Positions 2,677 through 25,748 of a stretch of 46,029 nt of DNA are shown in pieces. Made by a program: the position numbers and the translations under genes. Within the stretch, counting starts at the first letter, position 1. Each line of letters starts with the position of its first letter. Where the stretch lies: assembly GCA_011389855.1 (NCBI GenBank), contig JAABTM010000007.1, forward strand, positions 1 to 46,029, written 5' to 3'. The notes beneath the pieces were generated by a model, which saw only the letters and a program-made list of their open reading frames with translations, searched no databases and was not told where the DNA came from. The stretch is from Desulfobacteraceae bacterium (GTDB lineage Bacteria > Desulfobacterota > Desulfobacteria > Desulfobacterales > JAABSP01).

Positions 2677-4143
2677 ATGAAACATTATAAAATTTTATGT
2701 TTTTTATTCGTTTTGTTGCTCATGTTCGTTTTTGGCCTTAAAATGGATATAATCGCCAATGCTCAGGAATATGGTCAGGAGATCTGGCAGGTCGATCTTC
2801 TGGACACCATCCGATCCATGGCCGTCATACCCGATCTCAGCGGCGACGGTTTTCCCGATCTTATCGTCGGCGCCGATTCCGGAATCTACTGCATCGAAAC
2901 CCGGGAGGGCGTCTCGTGGTGGAGCGCTAAGGTTCCCTCCGGCGCAACCGTATCCGATACGGTCTGGTCCGCGGCCGCCATCGGCGACGTGGATGCCGAC
3001 GGTCAGCCGGACGTGGCGGTGGGGACATCGGGCAACGAGGTCCGCTGTTTTTCCGGCGGCGCGGCAACGGGCGCCGGAGTGGAAATCTGGTCGCGACCGC
3101 CCAATCTGGGCGGCGATGTCTGGTCCCTGTCCGCCTTTCCCGACATGGATAACGACACGTTTCCGGAAGTGCTCGCCGGGACGGCCGCCAACGCCGTCCA
3201 TCTTTTGAACGGGGAAGACGGGGCCGTTGTTTGGACGCATTCCGTCGGCGGCGATGTCCGGGTCGTATCCCCCATTCCGGATGTCAGCGGCGACGGTAAA
3301 CCGGATGTTTTGGCCGGGGCCGACGACGGCGCCGTTTATTGCATAAACGGCGCAACCGGTCTATTATTATGGCAATACGACGGTCTGGCGTCTGTCTGGT
3401 CCCTCGAAACATTTTACGATTTGGACGGGGACGGCCGTCCCGAGGTGTTGGTCGGCACGGGCGACAACCGCGTGGTCTGTTTGAGCGGCGCCCCCTCGTT
3501 GTCGGGGCCGGACCGGATCATCTGGTCGTTTTACACAGGCAGCGACGTTCGCGGCCTGGTCGCAATGCCCGACATGACCGGCGACGGCCGACCCGATGCG
3601 GCGGCCGGAAGCGCCGACAACCAGCTCTATCTGCTCGATGGCCGCGACGGGAAAGCGGTATGGAACCGAAACCTGAAAGGGGAAGTTTTTTCCCTGGCGC
3701 CCGTCCGGGATTTCACCCGTGACGGCCGGCCGGAGATCGCCGCCGGAACCGCCTTCAGCGCTGTTTTTTGTCAGTCCGGCGAGGACGGGACCGATTTGTG
3801 GTATTATCCGTTCGCCGACGTCGGTGAAATAAAGCACATCGCATCGATCCCCGACATGGGCGCCGACGGGGTGGAGGAAATCGCCGCCGCATCGGCCAAC
3901 GGGACGCTTCGTTTGCTGAGCGGTTCCGCCGGCCTGGGCAGGGCCCATTTCGAGGGGGACGCCGACTGCAATCATGATGTGGATCTGGCGGATGTGGTCA
4001 CGGTTTTGAAGATCATGGCGGGATTGCCTGCCGGGCCGTCCCCCATCCCGGAGGGTTGCGTTCCGGGAGACAGCGACGGCGACGGCCGGGCGGAATTGTC
4101 CGACGCCGTTTTGTCCATGACAATCGCGGCAGGCATCCAATAA
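2677..4143 (+). CDS. Secreted FG-GAP/PQQ-like beta-propeller protein with C-terminal dockerin
   Basis: A 488-residue exported protein of unknown function. Start ATG 2677 has AAGGGGG 8 bases upstream and gives a signal peptide (about residues 1-30, cleavage likely after ANA). Residues about 40-420 are repeats of roughly 45 residues, each with an acidic loop such as DLSGDGFPDLIVG, DVDADGQPDVAVG, DMDNDTFPEVLAG, DVSGDGKPDVLAG or DLDGDGRPEVLVG. This is the calcium-loop pattern of FG-GAP and VCBS-like propellers, mixed with PQQ-type strands. Residues 427-488 are a type I dockerin-like domain with two EF-hand-like loops (DADCNHDVDLAD and DSDGDGRAELSD) about 45 residues apart. Outside cellulosomes such modules are common in secreted multidomain proteins. 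It lies 17 bases before the giant polysaccharide-processing gene and probably shares its transcript, so it may act as a surface or matrix protein. The ligand is unknown. Confidence 0.82.
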   Translation: MKHYKILCFLFVLLLMFVFGLKMDIIANAQEYGQEIWQVDLLDTIRSMAVIPDLSGDGFPDLIVGADSGIYCIETREGVSWWSAKVPSGATVSDTVWSAAAIGDVDADGQPDVAVGTSGNEVRCFSGGAATGAGVEIWSRPPNLGGDVWSLSAFPDMDNDTFPEVLAGTAANAVHLLNGEDGAVVWTHSVGGDVRVVSPIPDVSGDGKPDVLAGADDGAVYCINGATGLLLWQYDGLASVWSLETFYDLDGDGRPEVLVGTGDNRVVCLSGAPSLSGPDRIIWSFYTGSDVRGLVAMPDMTGDGRPDAAAGSADNQLYLLDGRDGKAVWNRNLKGEVFSLAPVRDFTRDGRPEIAAGTAFSAVFCQSGEDGTDLWYYPFADVGEIKHIASIPDMGADGVEEIAAASANGTLRLLSGSAGLGRAHFEGDADCNHDVDLADVVTVLKIMAGLPAGPSPIPEGCVPGDSDGDGRAELSDAVLSMTIAAGIQ

Positions 4144-4160: not shown

Positions 4161-7100
4161 ATGCATTATCCTTCAAAAATCGGCCGCGCCCAAATCTTGA
4201 TTCTGATTCTGGCGGGCGTGGCCGCGGTGTATTTTTTTACCACGGGCCCGAAACGAATCGACTTTACCGACTACCCTTCCCTGCGGCCGACCCCGGACCA
4301 CACGGTCGCCATCCGATTCGATCCTTCCTTTTACTACGAGGGAAGGCCGCGGCCCAAAAAACTGGCGCGGCGATTGGCGGAAAAATGGCGGAAAGCCGGC
4401 GTCAACACGGTTTTCTACCGGGCCTACGACCCTCGACACGGGGCGTTCTACAAAACCGATTACCGCTACAACAAGGAAGGCGATTTCGGTCGACACGGTC
4501 TCATGGAGGCCCTGCTGGCCGCTTGCCGTGACCACGACATCCGGGTGTTTGCCTGGTTTCCGGTGATGAACCACGCCGGCGCATGGGAGGCTCATCCCCA
4601 ATGGCGGACCCGGACCCCGGATGGTTCCGATTATCGGGCAACCGGTCTGGAATACCCGTTGTGCGCCCGCAACCCGGACGCGCGAAGGTGGTGGACGGGT
4701 TTCTTGACCGATTTCCTGGAAACCTACCCCGGCATCGACGGCGTCGACTTGGGAGAACCGGTCGTGGCATGGACAAAGAGAGCGGGTTGTGCCTGCGACT
4801 TGTGCCGGAAAGCGATGGACCTGTCTTCGGAACCGGCGGTTCAGGTACGGGCCCATTCTCTGACGACGCTCATCGGCGACTCCGTCGCCGGAATCCGCCG
4901 ATTCGACAAACCGGTCTCCGTGACCACGGTCCAGCCGGCCCATGCCGACGGCCGGCTGCTGTCTTCCGCGGAGCTTTCGGCCATCACCGGATTCGATTTG
5001 ACCCATGTGCTCCACGCGCCTGAAAACCGACGCCCCGACATCATCTGCCCGGAATTTATCTGGCAGGAACTCAAAAGCCGCCACGGCCCGGAGACGGATT
5101 CCCCCTTCGATCCGGCCTGGACCGAAACGGCCGTCCGACAGTTCATCCGTCAACTGGATGCGCCGGTGGACCTGCTGGTCCATGTGGAAATCACGGACTT
5201 CCCCGGCGCGACCGTCGATCACGGGGATCTGGAAAAGACTCTGGCCGCGGCCCGGCGGGGCGGCGCACGGGGCATCGACGTCTACAACGCCGCCATTATG
5301 GATGAAAAAGCGGCCTGGCCCGCGCTTTTGGATTACAATCGGACGGTCCCCGTGAAACGCTGCCTGGTGCTCCACGACCCCGGAAGCGACAGGAACGACG
5401 CCATCCAGATCGGTGAATTGCTGCGTCATTTCAACACCACCATCGACCTGCTGCCCACGACCGATTACACGCCGTCTTTATCGGACCGATTCGACGCCGT
5501 TTTTTATGTGGGCACCCATGACGGGGCATCGATTCCCTCCGACCTGGTTCATGATCTGTCCCAGGGCGGTCAACCGGTCTGCTGGATGGGATTCAACATC
5601 CAGGCGGTCCTGGATACCCCCGGGATTGCCGAATCCCTGGGGATGACCTTTGTCGGAAACGATAATGGGCATTACCCAGCGACCCGCTACAAAAATCGGG
5701 TTCTCCCCAAAAAAGCGCCCTGGACCACCCTCGTCGACATCACCGAACCGGCTCGATGCCGGGTGTTTGCTACGGCCCATCAGGGCGAGGCCCCCGACCC
5801 CGACATCCCTGAATCGATCCCCTATGCGGTCAGGAGCGGCCGGCATTTCTGGTACTTCGCCGACGTGCCCACCTCCCACGCCGTGGAGGGCGACCGGTTT
5901 CTGATCTTCGCGGATTTGCTCCACGACATCCTGGACGAACCCCACGAACCCCGGCGAACGGCGCTGGTCCGCATCGAAGACGTCCATCCCCTGAGCGACC
6001 CCCGGCCGTTGTCGGCCATCGCCCAATTTCTCTATGACCATGACGTTCCCTTTCACATCGCCCTGGTGCCGTTTTACGTCTATCCCGAACAGAATCGCTA
6101 TGTGGGCCTGTCGGAACGGCCGGAGCTGGCGAAAACCATCCGCCACATGGTGAAAAAAGGGGGCGCGGTGGTCATGCATGGAACGACCCACCAGCGATTC
6201 GCCGAAACCACGGCGGATTATGAATTCTGGGACCCGGTGGCCAACCGGCCGCCGGAAGGAGAAAACGCCGAAACCATCCGGTCCCGGATCGAGATGGGGT
6301 TGCAGGAATTGATGAAGGTCGATATTTATCCCCTGATGTGGGAAACCCCCCATTACGCCGGATCCCGACGGCTCTACGACGCGGCCTCGGACCATTTCTC
6401 CCTGGCCATGGAACGCCGGCAATCCCTGGACCGGCTGGGCACGGACCAATACTTTCCTTATCTCATCGAGCCGGATCGGTTCGGCCAGATCATCGTCCCC
6501 GAAAACCTGGGATACATCCCCCTGTCCAATCCAGATCCGGAAGTCATCCTGGCGCCGGCCCGGAACATGGCCGTGGTCCGGGACGGAACCGCGTCCTTTT
6601 TTTTCCATCCCTTCGTGGATATGGACGTCCTGAAAACCATCGTCAGGACCCTCCAAAAGGAGGGCTGGACCTTCACCACCGCGGCGGACCTGCCGATTCT
6701 CACCCGATCGGAAAAAGGGGTCTGGACCACCCGGTCAGGAAAGATCATGCCGCCGGCCGGCGAGGTCGTGGAGCGGCGGATGGCCTATCCGGGGGTCCCC
6801 AAAGCCGCCCGGCCCCTGCCTCGGTCCAAAACGGATGAACCGCGGGAAATCACTTTATCCGTGGCCCCCAACGAGATCGTCGCCCTGCAACAGGTTCCCC
6901 CATCGGAGGACGCCGGGGCGGCGGCCGAAACATCGACCGCCGCCGCCGTCCAGGACCTCCAGACCGTGGCCAATTTCTTTGGTGAAGCCTGTCAGGTTCC
7001 CCGGCCCCTGATCATCGACGGCGACGGCGACGGGGCCGACGCCATGGCCCGGCTCCTGGAACTGGTCGGCGTCTCCGCCGCCCGGGTCGATGTGCATCGG

Positions 7101-9104
7101 TTCAGAGCCGTCCCGCAAGACATCAACCTTGTGCTGTCGCCGTCCGGTTCAACGGCGGTCATGACGGATCATCAGGTTCGGGAAATCACGGATCGACTGG
7201 CCAGGGGCGATATTTCCCTGATCGTCGAGGGATTCGGCCCCCTTTCGGACGCCGTGGGAATCGAAAAAAGAGCCGACCTGCCCATGACCGTGGAAGAGGT
7301 CGAGGACGCCCGCTATCCCCTGGTTCAGATAGAACCGCCCTCCCCCCTTGCCGCCTGGGCCTTCGAAGCCCCGGCCGACGCCGCGTTTCTCTATGAAGAC
7401 CGGGCGTCGGGCCGTCCCCTGGCGGCGACGGCCCGGCATGGGCAAGGGCGATATCTATTCATGTCCGCCGCGGCCGGCGATCCCTTTGGCGGCGAAACCT
7501 ATCCGTACCTGCTGTCCCACATTTTCCGGTCGCTTCGGATGTTTCCCCTCATGCGGGCGGCGGGGGCGACGGTCTATTTCAACCCCGCCGAGCGGCCCGA
7601 CATCGCCATCGAAAACCTGACGCGGCATTGGCGGAGAAGCGGCGTTCGCACGATATACGCCGCCGCCTGGCAGGCTTTTCCCGAATGGACCTACGATTAC
7701 GCCCGACTTATCCGGCTGGCCCATGCAAAGGGCATGCGGGTCTATGCCTGGATCGAACCGCCCCATGTCCACGACCGGTTCTGGCTCGCCCACCCCGAAT
7801 GCCGGGAAAAGACCGCGACGGGAAGAGACGCCGTGATGGGATGGCGCAAACCCATGGCGATGGGGACGCCCGATTGTTTCGACGCGGCCGCGGCGGAATT
7901 TCGGTCCTTTTTGACGCATTACGACTGGGACGGGGTTCTGGTCAACCGGGCCGGGTGGGAATCGAAAAACGGCCCCGATGATCCTGAACATCACACGCCG
8001 TTTCATCCCTGGGTCCGGTCGGCTTTCAAAACGGAATCAGGCGTTGATCCGGTGGATTTATTCCCGCCGTCGGACCATGAACCCCAAGCGGACTCGCGGT
8101 CGGCGTTTAGAACCTTCCGGGAAACCCTGGCCCGGGAATGGCTCGACAAGTTGATGAACGATTTGGTGGAACTGGCCTCGGCCCCGGAACGCGACTGGGA
8201 AATCGTGGTCGGCCATTCCCCGGACCGGCCCCACAACGGCCTGTCATCCGAAGATATCGCCGCTTTGAAAACCCGGTTCGGAGAGCAGGTGTCCTTGCAA
8301 TATCTGCAAAACATCGACGGCGGGGACGCGATGTGGCGGACCGCCGGACCGCCCTTCGACATCACGGGTTTTGAAATGGGGCCGACGCCGGACGACGCGC
8401 CTTTCGTCGCCCGGGCGCCCACGGCCTACCCAACGGGAACCGCGTTCTATGAGCAGCTCCACGCCTTCATCCACGACAACGACCGGTTCACGCTGCGTTC
8501 GGAAATCGCCGTTTACGACGTCGACAAGGAAATCCTGCCCTTTCTGTACGCCTCGGTGAACAAGAGCGAATGGTCGTCTGAAGGCCTGACCGTCACGGCC
8601 GGCGCCACGGCTGAAATCGTTCTGGCCGACAGCGACGCCGAAGAATGGCTCATTGACGGCGAAGCGGCCGGATCGTTTTCAGGCAACACCCTGGTCCTGC
8701 CCACGGGGCGGCACCGCATCCATCCGGACGCCGGCATACGCCCGCCCACGCCCAACCGGTCCGAAACCCGTCTGATCGATCTCTCCGACGATCTGGTGAC
8801 ATCCGTCGTCACCAGCAAGGGAATCGACATTGAATACGACGCGCCCCGGCGGGCTTTCCTGGTCGTCAACGAGCGGCCGCTGTCCGCCCGGATCGACGGA
8901 CAACCGGTGGAAAGCCTGCCGGACCGGGGCCTTCCCGGCTGGGCGGTGACAGGCCCGCCGGGACGGCACACCCTTTCGGTTCAAGCCCGAACCGGAACGG
9001 ATCTGATCCTGTCGGTTCTGAGCCTCTCGGTTTCCGGCGGCATCGTGATCATCAGCTTTTTCGCTATATTGGGGCTGATTATTATCGGCATATTGAGGAG
9101 ATAA
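4161..9104 (+). CDS. Giant membrane-anchored polysaccharide hydrolase/deacetylase-like protein (DUF2334, two TIM-barrel-like domains)
   Basis: A 1647-residue protein with no single familiar counterpart. ATG 4161 was chosen because a membrane segment (about residues 10-28, ILILILAGVAAVYFF) follows it. Apparent order: residues 47-390, a glycoside-hydrolase-like barrel (IRFDPSFYYEG, GVNTVFYRAY, IRVFAWFPVMN, DGVDLGEPV); 395-590, a Rossmann/flavodoxin-like segment (CLVLHDPGSD); 600-890, a DUF2334/polysaccharide-deacetylase-like domain with RIEDVHP (D607) and MHGTTHQRF (H673, H677) as likely metal ligands; 940-1120, a second alpha/beta segment; 1136-1480, a second barrel-like domain (GVRTIYAAAW, MRVYAWIEPPH, WDGVLVNRAGW); then beta-rich sequence and a last membrane helix (1610-1640). 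Hydrolase, Rossmann-like and deacetylase modules in one chain recall PelA, and deacetylase plus hydrolase recalls PgaB. It sits 6 bases before the GT2 synthase. I infer trimming and N-deacetylation of the nascent polymer at the periplasmic face; this is not proven. Confidence 0.75.
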   Translation: MHYPSKIGRAQILILILAGVAAVYFFTTGPKRIDFTDYPSLRPTPDHTVAIRFDPSFYYEGRPRPKKLARRLAEKWRKAGVNTVFYRAYDPRHGAFYKTDYRYNKEGDFGRHGLMEALLAACRDHDIRVFAWFPVMNHAGAWEAHPQWRTRTPDGSDYRATGLEYPLCARNPDARRWWTGFLTDFLETYPGIDGVDLGEPVVAWTKRAGCACDLCRKAMDLSSEPAVQVRAHSLTTLIGDSVAGIRRFDKPVSVTTVQPAHADGRLLSSAELSAITGFDLTHVLHAPENRRPDIICPEFIWQELKSRHGPETDSPFDPAWTETAVRQFIRQLDAPVDLLVHVEITDFPGATVDHGDLEKTLAAARRGGARGIDVYNAAIMDEKAAWPALLDYNRTVPVKRCLVLHDPGSDRNDAIQIGELLRHFNTTIDLLPTTDYTPSLSDRFDAVFYVGTHDGASIPSDLVHDLSQGGQPVCWMGFNIQAVLDTPGIAESLGMTFVGNDNGHYPATRYKNRVLPKKAPWTTLVDITEPARCRVFATAHQGEAPDPDIPESIPYAVRSGRHFWYFADVPTSHAVEGDRFLIFADLLHDILDEPHEPRRTALVRIEDVHPLSDPRPLSAIAQFLYDHDVPFHIALVPFYVYPEQNRYVGLSERPELAKTIRHMVKKGGAVVMHGTTHQRFAETTADYEFWDPVANRPPEGENAETIRSRIEMGLQELMKVDIYPLMWETPHYAGSRRLYDAASDHFSLAMERRQSLDRLGTDQYFPYLIEPDRFGQIIVPENLGYIPLSNPDPEVILAPARNMAVVRDGTASFFFHPFVDMDVLKTIVRTLQKEGWTFTTAADLPILTRSEKGVWTTRSGKIMPPAGEVVERRMAYPGVPKAARPLPRSKTDEPREITLSVAPNEIVALQQVPPSEDAGAAAETSTAAAVQDLQTVANFFGEACQVPRPLIIDGDGDGADAMARLLELVGVSAARVDVHRFRAVPQDINLVLSPSGSTAVMTDHQVREITDRLARGDISLIVEGFGPLSDAVGIEKRADLPMTVEEVEDARYPLVQIEPPSPLAAWAFEAPADAAFLYEDRASGRPLAATARHGQGRYLFMSAAAGDPFGGETYPYLLSHIFRSLRMFPLMRAAGATVYFNPAERPDIAIENLTRHWRRSGVRTIYAAAWQAFPEWTYDYARLIRLAHAKGMRVYAWIEPPHVHDRFWLAHPECREKTATGRDAVMGWRKPMAMGTPDCFDAAAAEFRSFLTHYDWDGVLVNRAGWESKNGPDDPEHHTPFHPWVRSAFKTESGVDPVDLFPPSDHEPQADSRSAFRTFRETLAREWLDKLMNDLVELASAPERDWEIVVGHSPDRPHNGLSSEDIAALKTRFGEQVSLQYLQNIDGGDAMWRTAGPPFDITGFEMGPTPDDAPFVARAPTAYPTGTAFYEQLHAFIHDNDRFTLRSEIAVYDVDKEILPFLYASVNKSEWSSEGLTVTAGATAEIVLADSDAEEWLIDGEAAGSFSGNTLVLPTGRHRIHPDAGIRPPTPNRSETRLIDLSDDLVTSVVTSKGIDIEYDAPRRAFLVVNERPLSARIDGQPVESLPDRGLPGWAVTGPPGRHTLSVQARTGTDLILSVLSLSVSGGIVIISFFAILGLIIIGILRR

Positions 9105-9110
9105 AAAGAA

Positions 9111-10373
9111 ATGGCCTACGCCCACCCGTTCATCGACATCCTTTTCCTGATCGCGGTTCTCGTCCTGTGGGTCATGATCTTTTACCAGTTGTTTTTCACA
9201 TACGCCGGCTATATTTACCGGCGACGTACGCTGATGGAGAAAAAGCGATTCGCCGGAAAGGGCATGGACGATCTGCCCCCCGTGTCGATTCTCATACCGG
9301 CCCACAACGAGGCCCTGGTGATCGAAAAAACCCTGGAGGCCATGCGGGCCCTGATCTATCCTCCGGAGCGGCTGGAAATCATCGTCATTGACGACGGATC
9401 AACCGACGATACGGCGCGCATCGTTCAACGCATTTCCAAAATCGATGCACGGGTGCGCCTTTTCAGCGTGCCGCCGGAGGAAGCGACCCAGGGAAAATCA
9501 CACGCCCTCAACCTGGGACTTAAAACCGCCGCCCATGACCTCATCGCGGTCTATGACGCCGACAACCGGCCCGAACCCGAGGCCCTGAAATTTTTGGCGA
9601 CCGCTTTGGTGGACAAACCGGAACTGGTTTCCGTTTTCGGCAAATTCCGCACCCTGAACAAACAGCGGAACCTGTTGACCCGCTTCATCAACATTGAAAC
9701 CCTGTCGTTCCAGTACATGGTCCAGGCCGGGCGCTACCTGGTTTCCGGCATCGCCATCCTTCCCGGCACCAATTTCATCATCCGGCGGGAGGCGGTGACA
9801 AAAAGCGGCGGATGGGACGAAGCCGCACTCACGGAGGACACGGAACTGAGCATCCGGCTCTACGAACAAGGCTATGAGATCAAATTCCTTCCCTACGCCG
9901 TTACCTGGGAAGAAGAACCAGAGAGATGGGGAACCTGGCTCCGTCAGCGCACCCGATGGGTGCGCGGAAATTTTTATGTGCTGCGAAAATACCTCCTGCC
10001 CTCGTTTCGATTCCGGAAGCGAAGCCTCACAATGGAGCTGATCTATCTGTTTTTGCTTTATTATCTGTTTCTTGTCTCCATCCTGCTGTCGCACCTGTTT
10101 TTCATCGCCTCGAGCCTGGGGTGGATCGCGGTCCTTTCGCCCGGCCCCTATTTCGCGGTCTGGGCGTGCGCCTTCGCCCTTTTCGTGGTGGAACTGAGCC
10201 TGACCGCGGCATATGACGACGAACTCACCCTCGCCAACATCGGCGTCATCCTGCTGATGTATTTCACCTACTGTCAGGCCTGGATAATTCTTGTATTCCG
10301 CGCCATCTACCAGGAATTTCGCCGGAAAGGAAAGGCTGAATGGGAAAAGACCCGACGATTCGGAACCGAATAA
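9111..10373 (+). CDS. Processive family 2 glycosyltransferase (PgaC/IcaA/cellulose-synthase-like)
   Basis: A 420-residue inner-membrane polymerase that would link nucleotide sugars into a chain and pass it across the membrane. An N-terminal membrane helix (residues 7-32) precedes the GT-A domain with all processive GT2 signatures: VIDDGSTDD (D94, D95), DAD (D149-D151), TED (T241-D243, catalytic base D243) and QRTRW (Q279-W283). Three or four membrane segments follow after residue 310. No PilZ domain or c-di-GMP site is visible, unlike bacterial cellulose synthase. The gene is 6 bases after the giant hydrolase/deacetylase gene, and the next gene starts inside its 3' end, so it is the core of the operon. 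Polymers from close relatives are beta-linked GlcNAc or hyaluronan-like. The epimerase downstream raises the possibility of a ManNAc-containing product. Confidence 0.9.
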   Translation: MAYAHPFIDILFLIAVLVLWVMIFYQLFFTYAGYIYRRRTLMEKKRFAGKGMDDLPPVSILIPAHNEALVIEKTLEAMRALIYPPERLEIIVIDDGSTDDTARIVQRISKIDARVRLFSVPPEEATQGKSHALNLGLKTAAHDLIAVYDADNRPEPEALKFLATALVDKPELVSVFGKFRTLNKQRNLLTRFINIETLSFQYMVQAGRYLVSGIAILPGTNFIIRREAVTKSGGWDEAALTEDTELSIRLYEQGYEIKFLPYAVTWEEEPERWGTWLRQRTRWVRGNFYVLRKYLLPSFRFRKRSLTMELIYLFLLYYLFLVSILLSHLFFIASSLGWIAVLSPGPYFAVWACAFALFVVELSLTAAYDDELTLANIGVILLMYFTYCQAWIILVFRAIYQEFRRKGKAEWEKTRRFGTE

Positions 10374-11206
10374 ACCGGGCGGCGCCGGCCGCACTGGTCG
10401 CGATATGTCTGATCTTGTGGTCGGTGAACGGACGCGCGGCCGATGAGGCCCAGGCCCCTGAATCCCCTTTTTGGGGCGAGATCTACGGCGCCACCGTGGC
10501 GACGGACGCGGAAGACGGCAATGTGACCAGCGATCCTTTCCTTCGCTTTGGCGTCCATTTGTTCGACCTCGGGGGACGGCCGGTCGACCTGTACGCCAAG
10601 GCCCGGTTCTACCACGACACCGAAGCCAATTTCTGGAACAACAAATGGCAATTGGGCGGAGGCGTCCGCTGTTTTCCCCTGGCGGACCATGGATTGGTCT
10701 TGTTCCTGGAGTATCTGTACGCCGAATACACCGGACGGGAACGAGCCCGGGAACCGGGCCCGGATGAGTCCGGTCAATTCGACGCCGAAGGGGGCGCGGC
10801 CTATTGGGGGTGGTTCGGCCCGGCGCCCTGGTCAATCAGCGGCGCGGAATTCTACATGCCGTTTACCGGCTGGCGGGAGGTCTATGCGGACGCCATCTAT
10901 TACGAGCGGGACCACGACAACTTCATCGGAACATTGGACCATAAAGAAGGGGTGTATTTATCCAAAATGGGAGAGGCGACCTTAGACGCCTATCTTGCAA
11001 TCGAAGCCGGACTAGATGCCAACGACGACCCTTGGAATCATTACATTAAAGGCGGACCGGGATTTCGAATCACGCCGTTTTCCGGTCTCGATTTGAAGGT
11101 GAGTTTCGAATATTTTATAGGGCGTTACACGCAAGGAGGATACGGCGACGTGGATCGCGACATCGCCGATTTGAAGGTGACGGCCTCTTTTTGGAGGGGA
11201 TGGTAG
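10340..11206 (+). CDS. Outer-membrane beta-barrel protein of the EPS locus
   Basis: A 288-residue protein that begins inside the end of the GT2 gene, which indicates translational coupling. Residues 1-34 are a Sec signal peptide, with cleavage likely after GRA before ADEAQ. The mature part is rich in aromatic and glycine residues in short alternating strands (KARFYHD, LFLEYLYAEY, ADAIYYERDHDNF, LKVSFEYFIGRYTQGGYG) and ends in an aromatic residue (SFWRGW), as outer-membrane barrels do. No TPR domain is present, so it is much smaller than PgaA or BcsC. Its position suggests it is the export pore or a barrel that supports export. I do not recognise the family; YaiO-like or unassigned barrels are alternatives. 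Confidence 0.75.
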   Translation: MGKDPTIRNRINRAAPAALVAICLILWSVNGRAADEAQAPESPFWGEIYGATVATDAEDGNVTSDPFLRFGVHLFDLGGRPVDLYAKARFYHDTEANFWNNKWQLGGGVRCFPLADHGLVLFLEYLYAEYTGRERAREPGPDESGQFDAEGGAAYWGWFGPAPWSISGAEFYMPFTGWREVYADAIYYERDHDNFIGTLDHKEGVYLSKMGEATLDAYLAIEAGLDANDDPWNHYIKGGPGFRITPFSGLDLKVSFEYFIGRYTQGGYGDVDRDIADLKVTASFWRGW

Positions 11207-11208
11207 TC

Positions 11209-12345
11209 ATGAACCGACCTCGACGATTGCTGTTTGTGTTCGGCACCCGGCCCGAAGCCATCAAGCTGGCGCCGGTCATCGATATGGCAAAAAGAGAAAA
11301 AGACCGGTTTGAAACCCAAGTGGCGGTCACGGCCCAGCACCGGGGCATGCTGGACGATGTGCTGGACGTTTTCGGCATCCGGCCGGACGCGGATTTGGAT
11401 CTCATGCGACCCGGCCAGTCGCTGTTTTATCTGACGTCGGCCATCGTCCGGGAAATGGAGGGTGTGTTGGAGCGATTCAGCCCGGACGTCGTTATCGTCC
11501 AGGGGGACACAACCACAGCATTCGCCGCGGCTTTGGCCGGTTTTTACTCCCATAAAAAAGTGGCGCATGTGGAGGCCGGTCTCCGGACCGACGATAAAGC
11601 CATGCCCTTTCCCGAAGAAATCAATCGGCGATTGGTCTCCTCCGTGGCGGATTATCATTTCGCCCCCACCGATTCGGCCCGTCGGAACCTGCTCGAGGAA
11701 GGCGTTCCGGACGGCAACGTCCATGTGACCGGCAATACAGTCATCGACGCCTTGCTGGGGGTTCTCGAACGGCATCCGGCCGACGGCCCTTGCCCGATAG
11801 ACGAACCCGCGTCCATCTTCGCCGCCTATGAGCGGGTCATCCTGATCACCGGACATCGCCGGGAGAATTTCGGACCGCCGTTCCAGGCAATCTGGACGGC
11901 GCTCGCGGCATCCGCGCGGAAAAACCCGGGGGTCGCGTTTGTCTACCCGGTCCATCCCAACCCCAGCGTAACCGACCGGGTGCGGCGAGTGCTCAAAGAC
12001 TTGCCCAACTGCTTTCTCCTGCCCCCCCTCCCCTATCCGGCCTTTTGCTGGTGCATGGCCCGATGCCGTCTGATTGTCACCGATTCAGGGGGCATCCAGG
12101 AAGAGGCGCCGGCTCTCGGGAAGCCGGTCTTGGTGACCCGACGGGTAACGGAACGGCCGGAAGCGGCAGCGGCGGGAATGGTCAAGCTGGTGGGCGACGA
12201 TGGCGGGGCCATCCAAAGCTGGATTCAGCGGTTGCTGGACGACCCGGATTGTTATGCGGAGATGGCGAAAGGCGGCAGTCCTTACGGCGATGGCCGCGCG
12301 GCGGAAAGAATTCTGAACATCTTAAAAAATGAGGAGACCCCATGA
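11209..12345 (+). CDS. wecB: UDP-N-acetylglucosamine 2-epimerase (non-hydrolysing)
   Basis: A 378-residue enzyme that converts UDP-GlcNAc to UDP-ManNAc in the cytoplasm. Three start codons lie close together (TTG 11191, ATG 11200, ATG 11209). ATG 11209 is best placed, 8 bases after GGAGGGGA, and begins the family N-terminus (NRPRRLLFVFGTRPEAIKL). Other WecB marks are VQGDTTTAFAAALA, KKVAHVEAGLRT, the GHRREN motif and SGGIQEEAPALGKPVLV. The gene follows the barrel gene directly and overlaps the next start by ATGA. In this operon it most likely feeds a ManNAc or ManNAc-derived residue to the polymer. No UDP-ManNAc dehydrogenase is in the window, so conversion to ManNAcA is not supported here. 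Confidence 0.93.
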   Translation: MNRPRRLLFVFGTRPEAIKLAPVIDMAKREKDRFETQVAVTAQHRGMLDDVLDVFGIRPDADLDLMRPGQSLFYLTSAIVREMEGVLERFSPDVVIVQGDTTTAFAAALAGFYSHKKVAHVEAGLRTDDKAMPFPEEINRRLVSSVADYHFAPTDSARRNLLEEGVPDGNVHVTGNTVIDALLGVLERHPADGPCPIDEPASIFAAYERVILITGHRRENFGPPFQAIWTALAASARKNPGVAFVYPVHPNPSVTDRVRRVLKDLPNCFLLPPLPYPAFCWCMARCRLIVTDSGGIQEEAPALGKPVLVTRRVTERPEAAAAGMVKLVGDDGGAIQSWIQRLLDDPDCYAEMAKGGSPYGDGRAAERILNILKNEETP

Positions 12346-13472
12346 ACTGGACATCGATACACGATCAATTTGAAATCAACCGGGAAAAAATCTGGCTGAA
12401 CAACTGCGGGACCGTGCCGGCCGGCAACCATGCCGTAAAGGCGGTGACCGACTTCATGGAAGGCTATGCAGAACTGGGGACGTTGAACCCGTCGGGCAAT
12501 CCGAACCGCATTCGGGCCGATATCAAGACCCTTCTGGCGGGCCTCTTGAACTGCCACATCGACGAACTGGGCCTCATCCATCATACCGCCGAGGGAATGA
12601 ACTTCATCTCCCACGGCCTGCCCTTCTCGCCGGGGGACGAGGTCATTCTCCTGGAAAACGAATACCCGAGCAACGTCTACCCCTGGCGTCATCTCCGGGA
12701 AAAAGGCGTCACCCTTAGCACGACGCCCATGGAAACCACGCCGGAGGACTTTTTAGAATCACTGAAAAAGCGGATCACCCAACGGACCAGGGTGATCGCT
12801 ATTTCCGCCGTCCACTGGTGTACGGGCATGCCGCTGCCGGTTCATGATGTTGGGCGATTGTGCCGGGAGCGGGGGATCTATTTCGTGCTGGACGGGGCCC
12901 AGGGGGTGGGGATGCAGCCCATCGACGTCAAGCGGGACTGCATCGATTTCATGGCCTTTTCCGCATGGAAATGGCTCACGGGCCCAATTGGATTAGGCGG
13001 GCTCTATATCGCCCGGGAGCGGCTGGATTCCATCAAACCGATTTTTGTCGGCACGGACTCGGTGGTGGACGACGAAGCCTATCTCCCCTACAAGGACGAC
13101 CTCAAGCCCTCGGTGGACCGGTTCACGATTTCGACTCCCAACATCTGCGACTGGGTCTATTTCCTGGCATCGCTCCGGTTTCTGGACGAGATCGGTTTCG
13201 ACGCGGTCCGGGAGCGGATCTTCGATTTGAGCCGGCGTCTGTCCGACGGGCTCACCGGCCTCGGATACCGGGTGCTGGCGTCGGATTTTCCACGCCATCC
13301 CACGGGGATCGTGGTATTTGAAAAGGATGGAATTTCAACGGATGCGATTTTTCAGCGCTTGAAGGAAAACGGCGTCGTAGCGGCCCGGCGGCTGGACCGG
13401 GTCCGTCTTTCGCCTCATGTCTACCTGCTGCCGGAGCAGATTGACGAGGCGCTGTCCGTGCTGGAGGCTTAG
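12342..13472 (+). CDS. Class V PLP-dependent aminotransferase / cysteine-desulfurase-like enzyme
   Basis: A 376-residue fold-type I PLP enzyme that starts in the ATGA overlap with wecB and has GAGGAG 5 bases before its ATG. Residues typical of class V are visible: NNCGTVPAG near the N-terminus, an Asp/Gln pair in FVLDGAQGVGMQP that contacts the cofactor, and the Schiff-base Lys in AFSAWKWLTGP. The C-terminal small domain is complete. The conserved Cys loop of true NifS/IscS enzymes is not evident, so an aminotransferase, lyase or isopenicillin-N-epimerase-like role fits better. It is the last gene of the exopolysaccharide block on this strand. It may make an amino sugar or amino acid decoration, but the substrate cannot be read from sequence. 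Confidence 0.82.
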   Translation: MNWTSIHDQFEINREKIWLNNCGTVPAGNHAVKAVTDFMEGYAELGTLNPSGNPNRIRADIKTLLAGLLNCHIDELGLIHHTAEGMNFISHGLPFSPGDEVILLENEYPSNVYPWRHLREKGVTLSTTPMETTPEDFLESLKKRITQRTRVIAISAVHWCTGMPLPVHDVGRLCRERGIYFVLDGAQGVGMQPIDVKRDCIDFMAFSAWKWLTGPIGLGGLYIARERLDSIKPIFVGTDSVVDDEAYLPYKDDLKPSVDRFTISTPNICDWVYFLASLRFLDEIGFDAVRERIFDLSRRLSDGLTGLGYRVLASDFPRHPTGIVVFEKDGISTDAIFQRLKENGVVAARRLDRVRLSPHVYLLPEQIDEALSVLEA

Positions 13473-16693: not shown

Positions 16694-18427
16694 ATGACAG
16701 CGACATTCGGGGATGCCCATGTAAAGGCATATGGACTCGATTTGGACGGACACACATTGGAGCAATCGAAAAGTACAACAGGGCAACGGGGATGGTGGCG
16801 GGGCGACGACGCATCCCTCCAACAGGGAGAAAGCGCCTTCAGAGACGCCCTTTACCGCCTGGGCAAGCCCATCTCCATCGTCGAAATGGACGGGGCGGCC
16901 GCCGTGTCCAATGACGGGACGGCGATCCTTGGAAACGGGGCCGGCGGCGGCCATCCCCTCCTGGCCCATGCGCCACCGCTGAGGCCGGAAGACCTGGGCG
17001 ACCCCGTCTTCAAACAGGCCCATTCCCTGCGGTACGCATATGTGGCCGGGGCCATGGCCAACGGCATCACGTCGGTGCGGATGGTCGAGGAGATGGGCCG
17101 GGCCGGCATGATGGGGATTTTCGGCGCCGGCGGATTGCCGCCCGAAAAGATCGAAGCGGCCATCCTGGTCCTCCAGGAGCGGCTGGGCGATCATCATCCC
17201 TTCGGCTTCAACCTCATCCACAGCCCCAATGATCCGGAACTGGAATGGGCCACCGTCGACCTCTACCTGAAACACGGCGTGGACCGCATCAGCGCCTCCG
17301 CCTACCTCAACCTCACCCTCCCCCTCGTCCTCTACCGGGTCAAGGGGATCCATCAGGACCCCCAAGGCCGCGTGATCCCCCCCAACAGGGTCATCGCCAA
17401 AGTCTCCCGGACGGAGGTGGCGCGCCGGTTCCTGTCGCCGCCCCCCGAAAAGCTGCTCATGGAACTGGTCCGGACCGGGAAGATCACCCAAACCGAAGCC
17501 GACCTGTCCCGACAGATCCCCATGGCCGAAGACCTGACGGCCGAAGCCGACTCCGGCGGCCACACGGACAACCAGCCGGCTCTCTCCCTGCTGCCCTCCA
17601 TGATCGCCCTGCGGAACCGGCTCCAGGAGGAACACCGCTTCCAGCGATTCCCCAGAATCGGCCTGGCCGGCGGCATCGCCACGCCGGAGTCCACCGCCGC
17701 CGCGTTCGCCATGGGCGCGGCCTATGTGCTGACCGGGTCCGTCAACCAGTCCTGCATCGAAGCCGGCACGTCGGACAAGGTCCGGTGCATGCTGACGGAG
17801 GCCTGCCAGGCGGACATCACCATGGCCCCGGCCGCCGACATGTTTGAAATGGGCGTCAAGGTCCAGGTGCTCAAACGGGGAACCATGTTCCCCCTGCGGG
17901 CCGCCAAACTCTACGACCTCTACCGGGCCCATGATCGGTACGAAGCGATCCCCCGGGAGCAGCGAACCGCCCTGGAGCGGGACTTTTTCCAGCGAGGTTT
18001 TGACGCGGAATGGGCCGCCACCCGGGAGTTCTTCTCCCGCCGCGATCCGGCCCAGATCGAGCGGGCCGAAAAGGACCCCAAACACAAGATGGCCCTGGTG
18101 TTCCGCTCCTATTTGGGGCGGTCTTCGGTATGGGCCGTGTCGGGCGATCCGGGGCGGGTCATCGATTACCAGATCTGGTGCGGGCCGTCCCTGGGCGCCT
18201 TCAACGAATGGGTTCGGGGGTCGTTTCTGGAACCCCCGGAAAACCGCCGGACCGTCACGGTGGCCCTGAACCTGCTTTTCGGCGCCGCCGCGGCGACCCG
18301 ATCCGCCGGACTGCGGAACCAGGGGGCGGCCCTGCCGCCGGCGGTGGATCAGTACCGGCCCTTGACCCTGGACGAGATGGCCCGTTGTCTGGACGGCGCG
18401 CCGCGGGCCGCGGCCATAGAAGCGTAA
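16694..18427 (+). CDS. pfaD: PfaD-family enoyl reductase of a PUFA/polyketide-type synthase
   Basis: A 577-residue FMN-dependent enoyl reductase that works in trans with iterative type I synthases (PfaD/FabK-like family). Visible marks are RGWWRGDD near the N-terminus, GIFGAGGLPPEKIEAAI and FGFNLIHSPNDP (nitronate-monooxygenase-like TIM-barrel strands), RIGLAGGIATPESTAAAFAMG with AAYVLTGSVNQSC for the flavin phosphate, and the family-typical ADMFEMGVKVQVLKRGTMFP and RSYLGRSSVWAVSGDP. Length agrees with PfaD (about 540-580). No Shine-Dalgarno precedes ATG 16694, so the start is uncertain by up to a few tens of residues. The multidomain synthase begins 24 bases downstream. Together they form the whole visible system; no separate PfaB, PfaC or phosphopantetheinyl transferase is nearby. 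Confidence 0.92.
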   Translation: MTATFGDAHVKAYGLDLDGHTLEQSKSTTGQRGWWRGDDASLQQGESAFRDALYRLGKPISIVEMDGAAAVSNDGTAILGNGAGGGHPLLAHAPPLRPEDLGDPVFKQAHSLRYAYVAGAMANGITSVRMVEEMGRAGMMGIFGAGGLPPEKIEAAILVLQERLGDHHPFGFNLIHSPNDPELEWATVDLYLKHGVDRISASAYLNLTLPLVLYRVKGIHQDPQGRVIPPNRVIAKVSRTEVARRFLSPPPEKLLMELVRTGKITQTEADLSRQIPMAEDLTAEADSGGHTDNQPALSLLPSMIALRNRLQEEHRFQRFPRIGLAGGIATPESTAAAFAMGAAYVLTGSVNQSCIEAGTSDKVRCMLTEACQADITMAPAADMFEMGVKVQVLKRGTMFPLRAAKLYDLYRAHDRYEAIPREQRTALERDFFQRGFDAEWAATREFFSRRDPAQIERAEKDPKHKMALVFRSYLGRSSVWAVSGDPGRVIDYQIWCGPSLGAFNEWVRGSFLEPPENRRTVTVALNLLFGAAAATRSAGLRNQGAALPPAVDQYRPLTLDEMARCLDGAPRAAAIEA

Positions 18428-18451
18428 ACCCAACACACCCCGAATAACTCC

Positions 18452-21400
18452 ATGGATTATTGCCAAAAGAAAATGACAGACGATCGATCTTCCGTTCCCC
18501 ACACGGTCCCCGCGGCCATCATCGGCATCGGGTGCATCTTCCCCCGGTCGCCGGACCTGAAAGGCTACTGGCGGCTCCTCCTCCAGGGCGTGGACGCCAT
18601 CGCCGAGGCGCCGGACACCCACTGGTCCGCGTCCGATTATTACGACGACGACCCCAAGAAGCCGGACCATGTCTACTGCAAGCGGGGCGGGTTCATCCCG
18701 CCGATCTCCTTCGACCCATCGGAATTCGGCATCCCGCCGTCTTCCCTGGAGGCCACGGACACCGCCCAGCTCCTGGGGCTGGCCACGGCCAAAGCCGCAT
18801 TGAAGGACGCCGGGTACGACGTGAACGCCGACTTCGACCGCGACCGGGTCAGCGTGGTGCTGGGCGTCACCGGCACCCAGGAACTGGTCATCCCCCTGGG
18901 CGCCCGGCTGGGCCATCCCCGGTGGCGGAAAGCCCTGGCGGACGCCGGCGTCGATCCGGACACGGCCGAGGACGTGGTCCGGCGGATCGCCGATTCCTAC
19001 GTCCCCTGGCAGGAGAACTCCTTTCCGGGACTCCTGGGAAACGTGGTGGCCGGCCGGATCTGCAACCGGCTCAACCTGGGCGGCACCAACTGCGTGGTGG
19101 ACGCGGCCTGCGCCTCCTCCATGAGCGCCATCCACATGGCGCTCATGGAACTCTTCACCGGACGGTCCGACATGGTGGTGACCGGCGGCGTCGATTTGCT
19201 CAACGACATCTTCATGCACATGTGCTTTTCCCGGACCCAGATTCTGTCCCCCACCGGCGACGCCCGCCCCTTTTCCGCCGGCGCCGACGGAACCGTCCTG
19301 GGGGAGGGCGTCGGCCTCCTGGTGCTCAAGACCCTGGCCGCGGCCGAGGCGGCCGGGGACAAAATCTACGCCGTTATCCGGGGCATCGGCTCCTCCAGCG
19401 ACGGCAAATCCCAGTCCATTTACGCGCCCCGGGCCGAGGGCCAGGCAAGAGCTTTGCAGACCGCCTACCGGAGCGCGGGGATCGATCCGTCCACGATCTC
19501 GCTGGTGGAAGCCCACGGGACCGGCACCCGGGTGGGAGACGCCGTGGAACTCAAGGCCCTGACGTCCGTTTACGGCCCCGGAAACGGCGACAAGCGGTGC
19601 GCCGTGGGATCGGTCAAGTCGATGATCGGCCATACCAAGGCCGCGGCCGGATCCGCCGGACTCATCAAGGCGGCCCTGGCACTCCACCACAAGGTGATCC
19701 CCCCCACCCTCAAAGTAGACCGGACCGACCCCAAACTCGGCCTGGACGACAGCCCCTTCTACATCGCCACCCGGCGCCGGCCCTGGATCAACGGAACCGA
19801 CGCCCCCCGACGGGCCGGGGTGAGCGCCTTCGGGTTCGGCGGCAGCAACTTCCACCTGGTGCTGGAAGAATACGAGCGCCGGAAAACGGCCCCTTCCTGG
19901 GACGGCTCGGTGGAGATCGTGGCCCTGTCGGGGGCCAGCCGCGAGGAGATCGGAAAAAGCGTGGAAGCCCTGAAGGCCCTGCTTTCGGACGACGCCGCCT
20001 CGGATCTCCACATCGCCCGGGAAGCCCATGCCTCCCGCGGGCGGTTCGACGCCGGCCATCCCCACCGGCTTCTGATGATCCTCTATCGATCCCAGGCGGC
20101 GGACGGCGGTCTCAAAACGGCCCTGGCCGACACCCTCCGGTCCATCCGGCCCGACGCCCCGGAGACCCAAAACCTGCCGGCCAACGCGTTTTACGGCGGC
20201 CCCGACCGGCCCGGAAAACTGGCCTTCGCCTTTCCCGGCCAGGGAAGCCAGTACGTGGACATGGGGCGGGACCTGGTCTGCCTGTTCCCGGAGGCCCTGG
20301 ACGCCGTGGACCGCTTCGCCGCCGGTTTCGAAACCGACGGCCGCCTGAGCGACCGGATATTTCCGCCGCCGACGCTGGACGAGGCCGAAAAGAAAACCCG
20401 GGAAGCCGCTTTGCGGCGAACGGACATCGCCCAGCCCGCCATCGGCGCGATCAGCCTGGGAATGCTCCGAATCCTGTCCGGTTTCGGCATAGCCCCCGAC
20501 GCCGTCTGCGGGCACAGCTACGGCGAACTCCCGGCCCTCCACGCCGCCGGCCGGATCGACGCCGACGCCCTGGCCCGCCTGTCCGGTCTCCGGGGCCGCC
20601 TCATGGCGGCCGCCGCCGGAGAGGGAACGGGCGCCATGGCCGCGGTAAAGGCGCCGCTGGAGACCCTCCAAGAGATCCTCGACACATCGGACCTCGACCT
20701 GGTGCTGGCCAACCGGAACAGCCCGGAACAGGGCGTGGTCTCCGGCGCCGCCGCCGACGTCGAACGGTTTGAAACCCTTTGCGGGGAAAAAGGGGTGAAA
20801 TGCGTCCGGCTGCCGGTCTCCGCCGCCTTTCACAGCCCCCTGATGCGGGGCGTCCGGGACCCCTTTGAAGCGGCCCTGGCGGACATCCCGTTCACCGCCG
20901 CCGGCATTCCGGTTTACGCCAACGCAACGGGCGGGCCCTACCCCGACGATGCGGCCGCCGCCCGGCGACTCCTGGCCGACGCGATCATCCGTCCCGTGGA
21001 TTTCATCGGACAGATCCGGGCCATGTACGACGCCGGCGTCCGGACCTTCGTGGAGGTCGGCCCCCGGACCGTCCTCACGGGCCTGATCTCGGCCATCCTC
21101 GCCGACACCAACGCCAAGGCCATCGCTCTGGACGGTTCCGCCGGCCGCCGGTTCGGCGGGGCCGATCTCGCCGGGACCCTGTGCCGGCTGGCGGCCATGG
21201 GCCATCCGGTCCGCCTCGACAAATGGGAATCCGAGCCCGAGGCCCCGCCCCGGCAGCGGATGAGCATCCCCCTTTCCGGGGCCAACTATCGCTCGGAAAG
21301 GCCCCAAAAGCCGCCCAGGCCTCCCGCCGAAAAGACCCGGGAGGCCGAACCGGAACCCATCCGCATGCGGCCGGAACCCGCGCCAAAACACGCTGAAACG

Positions 21401-24400
21401 CTTTCGTCCGCGCCCCAAACGAACCCTAACCCCTTACCGCCGAATCAGGCCGCCGCCCCTTCGGCTGTTTCCGAAAAAAGTACTGCTATGAAAACCGATC
21501 CAACCCCGTCCACCGCGCCCCCACACGCCCAACGCCGCCCGGATTCGGTGAGCGACGCCCTTCGGGTCGTCCAGGAAGGGCTTCAGTCGATGCAGGCCCT
21601 CCAGACCCAGACGGCCCGGACTCACGAAAAATTCCTGGAATCCCAGACCCAGGCCAGCCGAACCCTCCAGGAGATGATGCAGAGCACCCGCCGGCTGGCC
21701 GAGGCCGCCATGGGGGTTCCGTCGGCCGCGTCGGCGACAAGCACGGTTGAAAAACCGGCCGACCCTCCGGTTGCACCACCGCCACCGGCCCCGGCGCCTG
21801 AACCGGAAGCGGCGACCCCAACGGATGCGGCCCTGGAAGCCGCCCTCCTGGACGTGGTGAGCGAACTGACCGGCTATCCCGCCGAAATGCTCAACATGGA
21901 GATGGACATCGAAGCCGACCTGGGCATCGACTCCATTAAAAGGGTGGAGATCCTGTCCACCATGGAGGAGCGGATCCCCGATCTGCCCCAGGTCTCCCCC
22001 GAGATCATGGGGACCCTGCGCACCCTGGGCGAAGTGGCGGCCCACCTCGTGGGCGCGCCCGCCGCCGGCGGGCCTTCTTCCGCCGGACCGGCGCCAACCG
22101 CCCCCAAAGCCGACCACGGGACGGCGCCGCCGTCGTCCCCTGCCCGGGACGACGACCTCCGGGAGGCCCTGCTGGACGTGGTGAGCGAACTGACCGGCTA
22201 TCCCGCCGAGATGCTCACGATGGAGATGGACATCGAGGCCGATCTGGGCATCGACTCCATCAAGCGGGTGGAGATCCTCTCCACCATGGAGGAGCGGCTC
22301 CCGGACCTGCCCCAGGTCTCCCCCGAGATCATGGGGACCCTGCGCACCCTGGGCGAAGTGGCGTCTCATCTGATCGGCGCCGGCGGCGAAGCCGCAGGTT
22401 CGGCCGCCCCGACGCCCACGCCCGCCGCAACGGTCGACATCGAGACGACGCCGTCTTCCGCGCCGCCGGACGACGACCTCCAAAAGACCCTGCTGGACGT
22501 GGTGAGCGAGCTGACCGGCTATCCCACCGAAATGCTCTCCATGGACATGGACATCGAATCCGACCTGGGCATCGACTCCATCAAGCGGGTGGAGATCCTC
22601 TCCGCCATGGAGGAGCGGTTGCCCGATTTTCCCGCCGTCTCCCCTGAAATCATGGGGTCGTTGCGGACCCTCGGCGAGATCGTCGCCCACCTTTCCGGCG
22701 CCGCCCCGGAGGCCCCGAAACCGACGGCGACGCCCTCGCTGGAAAAGGAGACGCCCCGCGAACCGGCCCCGCCGCCGACGCAGGCGGCGAAGCCCGCCAT
22801 CGGCGATGTCCAGCGCCGGACCGTGGCGGTTCGGGAAGTTCCCCGGCCCGACGGGCCGGCCCTTGCGCTTCCGGAGGGAAGGACCGTGCTCATCACCCGG
22901 GACAGCGCGGGTCTGGCCGACGCCCTGGCACGGGTTCTGACCGCCGATTACGGTCTGACGACCCGCCTGATCCCGCCGGCATACGATGATATGCCCGGGG
23001 ACCTGCCGGCGGCCGGGGGCCTCATCCTGCTGGCCGACGCCTGGGATACGGACAACGACGGGTTCTTAAAGGATGCCTTCCTGCTGGCCCGACGCTTCGG
23101 AACCGAGCTGACGGCCTCGGCCGAAGCGGGCGGGGGCCTATTCGCCGCCGTCTCCCGCCTGGATGGGGGATTCGGGTTCCGGGGCGGGGCGATCGCCGCC
23201 CCCCGCCAGGGCGGTCTGGCCGGACTGGTCAAAACCGCGGCCCGGGAATGGGCCGGGGTCCGGTGCCGGGCCATCGACCTCGCGCCGGACTGGACCGACG
23301 TCGAGGCCGTCGCCGGGGCCCTTGCCGCCGAAGCGGTGATCGACGGCCCCCTGGAAGTGGGGCTCGACCGGGACCGCCGCGTGGAACTCGTCCTGGAACC
23401 GACCCCCTATCCCCGGGGCGACATCGACCTCCAGCCGAAAGACGTGGTGGTGATGACCGGCGGCGGCCGGGGCGTCACCGCCTGGACGGCCCATGTGCTG
23501 GCCACCCACGTTCAGCCGACCCTGGCGCTCATCGGCCGGTCGCCGGCGCCGACCTCCGAACCGGCGTGGCTGACTCCCCTGGACGACCCGGCGGTCATCA
23601 AAAAGGCCATCCTGACCCACGAATTCGGCGGCAATCCGCCCACGCCGGCCCAACTGGAAGACGCCTTCCGCCGCCGCATGGCCAACCGGGAGATCTCCAA
23701 CACCCTCTACCGGCTGGAAGCGGCCGGGGCGACCGTCCGGTATTTCCAGGCGGACGTCCGGGACGAGGCGGCGGTGACGGCGGTGCTCGATGGGGTTCGC
23801 ATGGATCACGGCCCCATCAAGGCCGTCGTCCACGGCGCCGGCATGCTCAAGGACAAACGGATCGTGGACAAATCCCCCGAGGATTTCTCGGCCGTCTACG
23901 ACACCAAGGTCAAGGGACTGACCTCCCTTCTGGCCGCCGTGCGGACCGATCCGCTCCGGTATCTCGTCCTGTTCTCGTCGGTAAGCGCCCGCTTTGGCAA
24001 CCAGGGGCAGGCCGATTACGCCATGGCCAACGAGGTGCTCAACAAAATGGCGCGGCATGAAGCAGCCCGGCGGCCCGACTGCCGGGTCCTCTCCATCAAC
24101 TGGGGCCCGTGGGACGGCGGCATGGTCACGGACGCGGTCAAACGGGAATTCCGGCGCAACGGCATCGCCCTCATCCCGGCCGAGGCCGGGGCCATGTGCA
24201 TGCTCCAGGAGATGATGGGCGACGATGACCATCCCGTGGAGGTGCTCATCGGGGCGGGGTTCGACGATCCCCTCTCCCTTACCTTCAAGCGGGAAATCGA
24301 CCTGAAGCGGTATCCCGTCCTCGGCGATCACATGCTGGACGGCAAGCCGGTGGTTCCCTTCGCCCTTATAACCGAATGGCTGAGCCACGGCGCCCTCCAC

Positions 24401-25673: not shown

Positions 25674-25702
25674 TTGATTTTTATCCTCCATCCCACTATT
25701 AT
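25674..25702 (+). promoter_or_regulatory. Sigma-70-type promoter for the aspartokinase operon
   Basis: TTGATT (25674-25679), 17 bases, TATTAT (25697-25702), about 46 bases before the aspartokinase ATG. Confidence 0.65.
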
Positions 25703-25748
25703 CATCGGTTTTATACTGTTCAACGGACAGCTTGGCCGAGGAGACGAG

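Follow-up and report, generated by a model that had tools for sequence, protein, structure and literature searches.

A 46,029-nucleotide stretch of a Desulfobacteraceae genome (contig JAABTM010000007.1, hereafter the window) carries on its forward strand a compact gene set, at 4161–12345 together with a propeller gene at 2677–4143, which we consider likely to encode a synthase-dependent exopolysaccharide machine working by the scheme proposed below, its product probably being a partly de-N-acetylated polymer of N-acetylmannosamine (ManNAc). The set consists of a giant protein of 1647 residues, a GT2 glycosyltransferase, an outer-membrane barrel and the epimerase WecB, and its genes, the folds of their domains, the intact catalytic motifs and the conserved synteny are all directly apparent. 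The machine most likely works in the manner of the poly-N-acetylglucosamine (PNAG) and Pel systems combined with that of Nfr, but is separate from them. It has a synthase family of its own, and the predicted deacetylating and cutting domains, which other such systems distribute over smaller proteins, are here joined in a single large processing protein; it is apparently undescribed yet widespread among bacteria.

A fused protein with hydrolase-like and deacetylase-like domains

A sequence-only reading of the window had placed five tightly spaced forward-strand genes at 4161–13472, and all five open reading frames were confirmed there, with spacings of +6, −34, +2 and −4 bases from the giant to the last gene, which encodes a pyridoxal phosphate (PLP) enzyme. 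The giant (4161–9104, + strand) is predicted to be a periplasmic polymer-modifying protein. From its N terminus it comprises a hydrophobic anchor, a glycoside-hydrolase-like barrel (GHL1; 4236–5345, Pfam GHL6, E 1e-10), an alpha/beta domain, a DUF2334 domain predicted to be a metal-dependent deacetylase (5961–6647, Pfam E 1e-43), a DUF4350-like domain for which the Pfam match is weak, a second hydrolase-like barrel with the fold of the PgaB C-terminal domain (GHL2; 7548–8615), a beta-rich region and a transmembrane helix (8994–9101, hydropathy maximum 3.0) that is found in 67 of 70 full-length relatives. Hydrolase-like and deacetylase-like domains are indeed joined in one membrane-anchored chain, as had been read from the sequence. 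No NCBIfam model matched the giant, a sequence search of the PDB gave no useful match to solved structures, and no characterised enzyme set among the same neighbours was found to match it over its full length, a result that would have marked it as part of a known system. The open literature searched, outside which subscription journals lie, yielded no description of the giant and no paper on DUF2334 together with exopolysaccharide.

The structure model covers residues 396–1590, with GHL1 outside it (56-row alignment, pLDDT 85). Its Foldseek rank 1 match was PelA (9cgy, E 4e-11, TM-score 0.33 by target), and for GHL2 the top VIA match was the C-terminal hydrolase domain of PgaB (4p7l, Z 22.4 over 293 residues, root-mean-square deviation 3.8), which filled ranks 1–4; such structure-match lists cannot rule out families absent from them. 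The deacetylase domain resembled polysaccharide deacetylases in fold (3rxz, Z 20.1; 3qbu, Z 18.6). The earlier description of the giant as ‘PelA-like plus PgaB-like’ therefore holds at the level of fold. GHL1 is homologous to GHL2 (hhalign E 4e-17), making the two barrels related, and its profile match to the PgaB hydrolase domain was faint (E 1e-4); the PgaB test of the carbohydrate-esterase (CE) domain gave E 0.2. That the two alpha/beta domains are duplicates of each other found no support (hhalign E 0.15), and a relationship of the GHL barrels to YbcH/DUF4434 was not significant (hhalign probabilities 9.6% and 2.2%).

The candidate catalytic residues of the DUF2334 domain (E606, D607, H673, H677, H731, R807, D808 and H816) are invariant in 56 of 56 relatives, and the Asp and Glu of the GHL1 motif DGxDxxEP are invariant in seven of seven sequences. 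In GHL2 a Glu is conserved in 53 of 56 relatives; the giant of the window has Arg1263 in its place, and an Arg is also found in the homologous locus L028. Because of this replacement GHL2 is probably non-catalytic here, and since GHL1 retains its Asp and Glu, cleavage, if there is any, has probably shifted to that domain. This likely catalytic loss, the propeller and the links to ManNAc through Nfr had been missed when the sequence alone was read.

Synthase family and conserved gene order

The GT2 (9111–10373, + strand, 420 residues) matches PF13641/PF13632, and the motifs of processive synthases (DDGSTDD, DADN, TED and QRxRW) are conserved in 53 GT2 sequences, in keeping with the processive polymer synthase originally proposed. 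Its best NCBIfam match, PgaC/IcaA (TIGR03937), reached 164.1 bits and lies below the cut-off of 422.3. Against the BcsA model TIGR03030 it scored 104 bits where the cut-off is 699, and a cellulose synthase was rejected on this score, the tree leaving BcsA unresolved on a very long branch. The GT2s associated with the giant form their own family in the tree, in which the NfrB clade is separate with 100/100 support, ruling out NfrB as an identity for the synthase, and a Pfam scan of the GT2 found no MshEN domain.

Relatives of the giant were found by scanning GTDB genomes with an alignment of the deacetylase module (A1), which returned 437 module relatives from about ten phyla. The 80 relatives kept include members of Desulfobacterota/Deltaproteobacteria, KSB1, Elusimicrobia, Bacteroidota/Ignavibacteria, Acidobacteria/Aminicenantes, Spirochaetes, Fibrobacteres, Verrucomicrobia and Actinomycetota. 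In nearly all full-length relatives the alpha/beta domain is followed by DUF2334, GHL2, the beta region and a C-terminal transmembrane helix. Within its own phylum the giant is rare, strong full-architecture matches being confined to the genome of the window and two others in a sample of 395, and viral contigs yielded no relatives. In 57 of the 63 testable loci of other bacteria the gene that comes right after the giant, in the same orientation, encodes a GT2, a frequency far beyond chance, and three more loci have a GT2 gene within about 4 kb. In two Actinomycetota, DUF2334 and GT2 are even fused in one chain beside wecB (L086, 5818–9444; L105, 9773–12673).

A conserved gene order and a distinct clade, both of which the sequence-only reading had held would speak for a new system, are present: the giant–GT2 order is maintained and the GT2s are a family of their own. 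What that reading called a new type of polymer is better described as coming from a new variant among synthase-dependent systems.

The giants with the extra N-terminal barrel form a subclade comprising the window, L028–L032, L085, L091 and L102. Where giants lack GHL1, a separate protein of 520–570 residues with a weak GH42-like match occurs close to wecB and the giant (L010, 5498–7108, and homologues elsewhere).

Outer-membrane barrel, WecB and propeller

The protein encoded at 10340–11206 (+ strand, 288 residues) received no Pfam or NCBIfam family assignment and no TPR (tetratricopeptide repeat) matches. Its model is a 12-stranded outer-membrane barrel (pLDDT 80; VIA Z about 16 against outer-membrane barrels), as the sequence-only reading had suspected, and it is the probable exit pore. 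The barrel family aligned with NfrA_C at E 3.5e-6 over 161 columns in hhalign, where controls gave 0.03 or worse; these were reversed profiles and other outer-membrane barrels, most of them single sequences, which makes for a weaker comparison. The L028 homologue reached 21.2 bits (E 2.4e-4) against Pfam NfrA_C (PF13283), whose cut-off is 25, with the protein of the window unmatched, and the family showed no significant hhalign similarity to PgaA. The barrel gene directly follows the GT2 gene in all seven testable loci with GHL1-bearing giants and is absent near most relatives outside that subclade. A different protein resembling outer-membrane proteins, of about 430–460 residues and with no Pfam match, is encoded at L046 15170–16561 and has homologues in 12 other loci; its gene often stands right after the GT2 gene where the NfrA_C-like barrel is missing, and it is possibly an alternative exporter.

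WecB (11209–12345, + strand, 378 residues) is a non-hydrolysing UDP-GlcNAc 2-epimerase, as first supposed, scoring 436 bits against TIGR00236 (cut-off 210), and is strongly conserved among 38 relatives. In 27 loci from several phyla wecB directly precedes the giant, and in 10 more it lies on the same strand no further than 6 kb downstream. The copy in the window is the only full-length one found in its genome.

The gene upstream of the giant (2677–4143, + strand) encodes a secreted FG-GAP/PQQ-type beta-propeller with a dockerin-like tail (Pfam FG-GAP_3, 3e-25). The same giant–GT2–barrel set has homologues of this propeller beside it in L028, where identity is 56%, in L029, which has two copies, and in L030, L031, L032 and L091. 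An FG-GAP propeller accompanies GHL1-bearing giants in at least six of seven loci and appears to be a recurrent accessory component. Secreted propellers of the YCF48/BNR type occur near the giant in L080 (7215–9299), with homologues in 17 other loci, and perhaps replace the FG-GAP propeller there.

Comparison with known systems

By analogy, the nearest functional parallel would be the Nfr/NGR system of E. coli (NfrB, NfrA, YbcH and WecB; N4 glycan receptor), because the barrel resembles the NfrA C terminus and some Nfr clusters contain DUF2334 as well. Both have a GT2 synthase, an association with WecB (in the window through wecB in the operon) as the putative source of a ManNAc precursor, and a periplasmic partner anchored in the inner membrane; the barrel family is similar in profile to NfrA_C. 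Nfr of E. coli requires WecB, and its proposed product is a ManNAc polymer (PMC8669472, PMC8669469). A Comamonadaceae cluster combines wecB, an NfrB-like glycosyltransferase, DUF2334, NfrA and DUF4434, the family of YbcH, while on the Desulfobacterota contig L144 nfrA and DUF4434 adjoin a convergent DUF2334 gene. Nfr-type clusters with a gene for a DUF2334 deacetylase, a component missing from the E. coli operon, span L007 4821–13767 and L144 638–7188. The relation is nevertheless one of parallel and not of membership, since the GT2 is not NfrB but of a distinct family, and the TPR domain, the cyclic di-GMP-binding MshEN domain and DUF4434 are all missing; in place of YbcH/DUF4434 stands the giant with its two hydrolase-like barrels and deacetylase.

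The set shares with the PNAG systems (pgaABCD, icaADBC) a PgaC-like processive GT2, a deacetylase and hydrolase-like domain in one chain and a GHL2 fold closest to that of the PgaB hydrolase domain. Unlike them, it has a GT2 far under the PgaC cut-off, a DUF2334 deacetylase, a doubled domain set and an included wecB, and neither the TPR porin PgaA nor PgaD was seen in it. With Pel (pelABCDEFG) the likeness is in the N-terminal half of the giant, which follows the PelA order of hydrolase, alpha/beta domain, deacetylase and beta-rich region; the giant differs from PelA in its second barrel and C-terminal transmembrane helix, with identity of about 12%. The synthase is a GT2 and not the GT4 PelF, and none of PelB, PelC, PelD, PelE, PelF and PelG is among the set genes, no search for pel genes in the rest of the genome having been made. 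The absence from the set of a TPR exporter and of a PelF-type GT4, and with it the conclusion that the system is not Pel, PNAG or cellulose, had been anticipated from the sequence and is upheld by gene content and family cut-offs. As in Agd3 (CE18) and PelA (CE21), the predicted deacetylase is of a metal type associated with exopolysaccharide. One Asp and the two His of an HxxxH motif are its candidate metal ligands, and the candidate catalytic His comes late in the domain, yet there is no sequence match to either enzyme, and the DUF2334 motifs RxED, HGxTHQ, PHY and RDG...FFHP are distinct.

Proposed mechanism and alternatives

For the sugar and substrate, the product, each enzymatic step and the function of the pore, we infer the following scheme. 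WecB would supply UDP-ManNAc, which the inner-membrane GT2 would polymerise while driving the chain into the periplasm. There the giant, tethered to the inner membrane by its C terminus and probably also by its N terminus, would take up the chain, and its DUF2334 domain would strip some of the N-acetyl groups. The hydrolase-like barrels may clip or hold the chain, GHL1 probably being active and GHL2 here probably serving as a binding platform. The polymer would then leave through the 12-stranded barrel, and the propeller would work outside the cell.

Several points weigh against this scheme. The resemblance of the giant to PelA and PgaB is one of fold, at about 10–12% identity, and neither a TPR scaffold nor a cyclic di-GMP receptor was seen in the set. 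The barrels of the exporters PgaA, BcsC and AlgE have 16–18 strands, beside which 12 strands are few for a polymer exporter, and the VIA matches of the barrel include the oligosaccharide uptake porins KdgM (Z 14.4), NanC (Z 13.7) and VhGalP (Z 15.1). It is conceivable, if improbable, that the barrel acts as a channel specific for oligosaccharides, through which cut fragments are taken up or released, with the main export route elsewhere; the lack of this barrel near most relatives outside the GHL1 subclade fits such a channel, but its profile likeness to the NfrA exporter barrel, its constant position after the GT2 gene in GHL1-type loci and the unrelated gene that occupies its place in some other loci argue against it. 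As for the sugar, ManNAc, which the sequence-only reading had suggested from WecB, is a plausible constituent, and a guess in that wecB is not adjacent in 20 of the 40 fully testable loci and WecB also serves other glycans. Where wecB is missing from beside the giant, 19 of 20 tested genomes carry a copy elsewhere; a sample of Desulfobacterota gave 54 of 118, a comparison that mixes phyla. A polymer that is not based on ManNAc, being PNAG-like or built of another N-acetylhexosamine, with WecB acting for another glycan or a side branch, seems somewhat unlikely to us: the best matches of the GT2 to PgaC/IcaA and of GHL2 to PgaB favour it, as do the loci without adjacent wecB, whereas the 27 loci in which wecB directly adjoins the giant, its place beside the fused Actinomycetota version and its status as the only full-length copy found in the genome of the window point back to ManNAc.

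Two further explanations would assign the set to a known family. The chief rival, which we think rather unlikely, is that it is a diderm branch of the Gram-positive Yda/Pss systems (ydaJKLMN of B. subtilis, pssA-E of Listeria), which combine a DUF2334 protein with a PgaC-like GT2 and were compared with the window by their descriptions. DUF2334 was matched in B. subtilis in a control search, and YdaL is a DUF2334/COG5298 protein. The DUF2334–GT2 fusions beside wecB in Actinomycetota point the same way, as do the PgaC-like GT2 PssC (PMC4125290) and the Listeria exopolysaccharide, a beta-1,4-ManNAc chain with galactose (PMC5422440). However, the degenerate GGDEF receptor and BcsB-like protein of these systems have no counterpart among the set genes, their hosts are monoderm, and their descriptions include nothing like the giant fusion of barrels. 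That the set is a degenerate Nfr/NGR system is very improbable: WecB, the NfrA_C-like barrel and the DUF2334 of some Nfr clusters would suit it, but the GT2 lies far from NfrB in the tree and has no MshEN domain, TPRs are absent and the hydrolase barrels show no significant match to YbcH/DUF4434.

Beyond the synthase-dependent machine that we favour, there is a fair chance, somewhat below even, that the set exemplifies an unrecognised type of synthase-dependent system, defined by the giant hydrolase–deacetylase–hydrolase protein and its own GT2 family and present in about ten phyla. Its product would be a cationic poly-mannosamine, de-N-acetylated in part. To our knowledge such a polymer has not been recognised as a component of biofilm matrices. 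Should the proposed reading of the set be right, a biofilm-polymer system would exist in hundreds of mostly uncultured lineages, invisible to surveys for Pel, PNAG, cellulose and alginate; the DUF2334 and GHL6 domains would gain a function, with PelA-type and PgaB-type processing united in one chain; and it could be tested whether deacetylated ManNAc polymers serve generally as matrix material and as phage receptors.

Flanking genes

The fifth gene (12342–13472, + strand) encodes a class V PLP enzyme (aminotransferase) of 376 residues and lies outside the system. The sequence-only reading had counted it as a member; as a pathway gene it was rejected, being absent from all 85 related loci and present, 91% identical, in the same-genus genome G002, in which the giant has no match. 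DNA similarity to G002 starts at position 12318, within the last wecB codons. The PLP gene is a resident gene of the genus: either the operon was acquired beside it, or G002 has lost the operon from that place. Base composition gives no sign of recent import, the G+C content of 56–63% over 4.5–13.5 kb being in the range of the remaining window. Further along, at 16694–25135, are genes for a PfaD-family protein (TIGR02814, 624 bits, cut-off 449) and a PfaA-like polyketide or polyunsaturated-fatty-acid synthase of 2227 residues (TIGR02813, 1567 bits, cut-off 1010). An aspartate kinase gene comes next, at 25674–26990, and the cluster is of the polyunsaturated-fatty-acid or polyketide type. A CLC-type voltage-gated chloride channel with CBS domains is encoded at 28338–30146.

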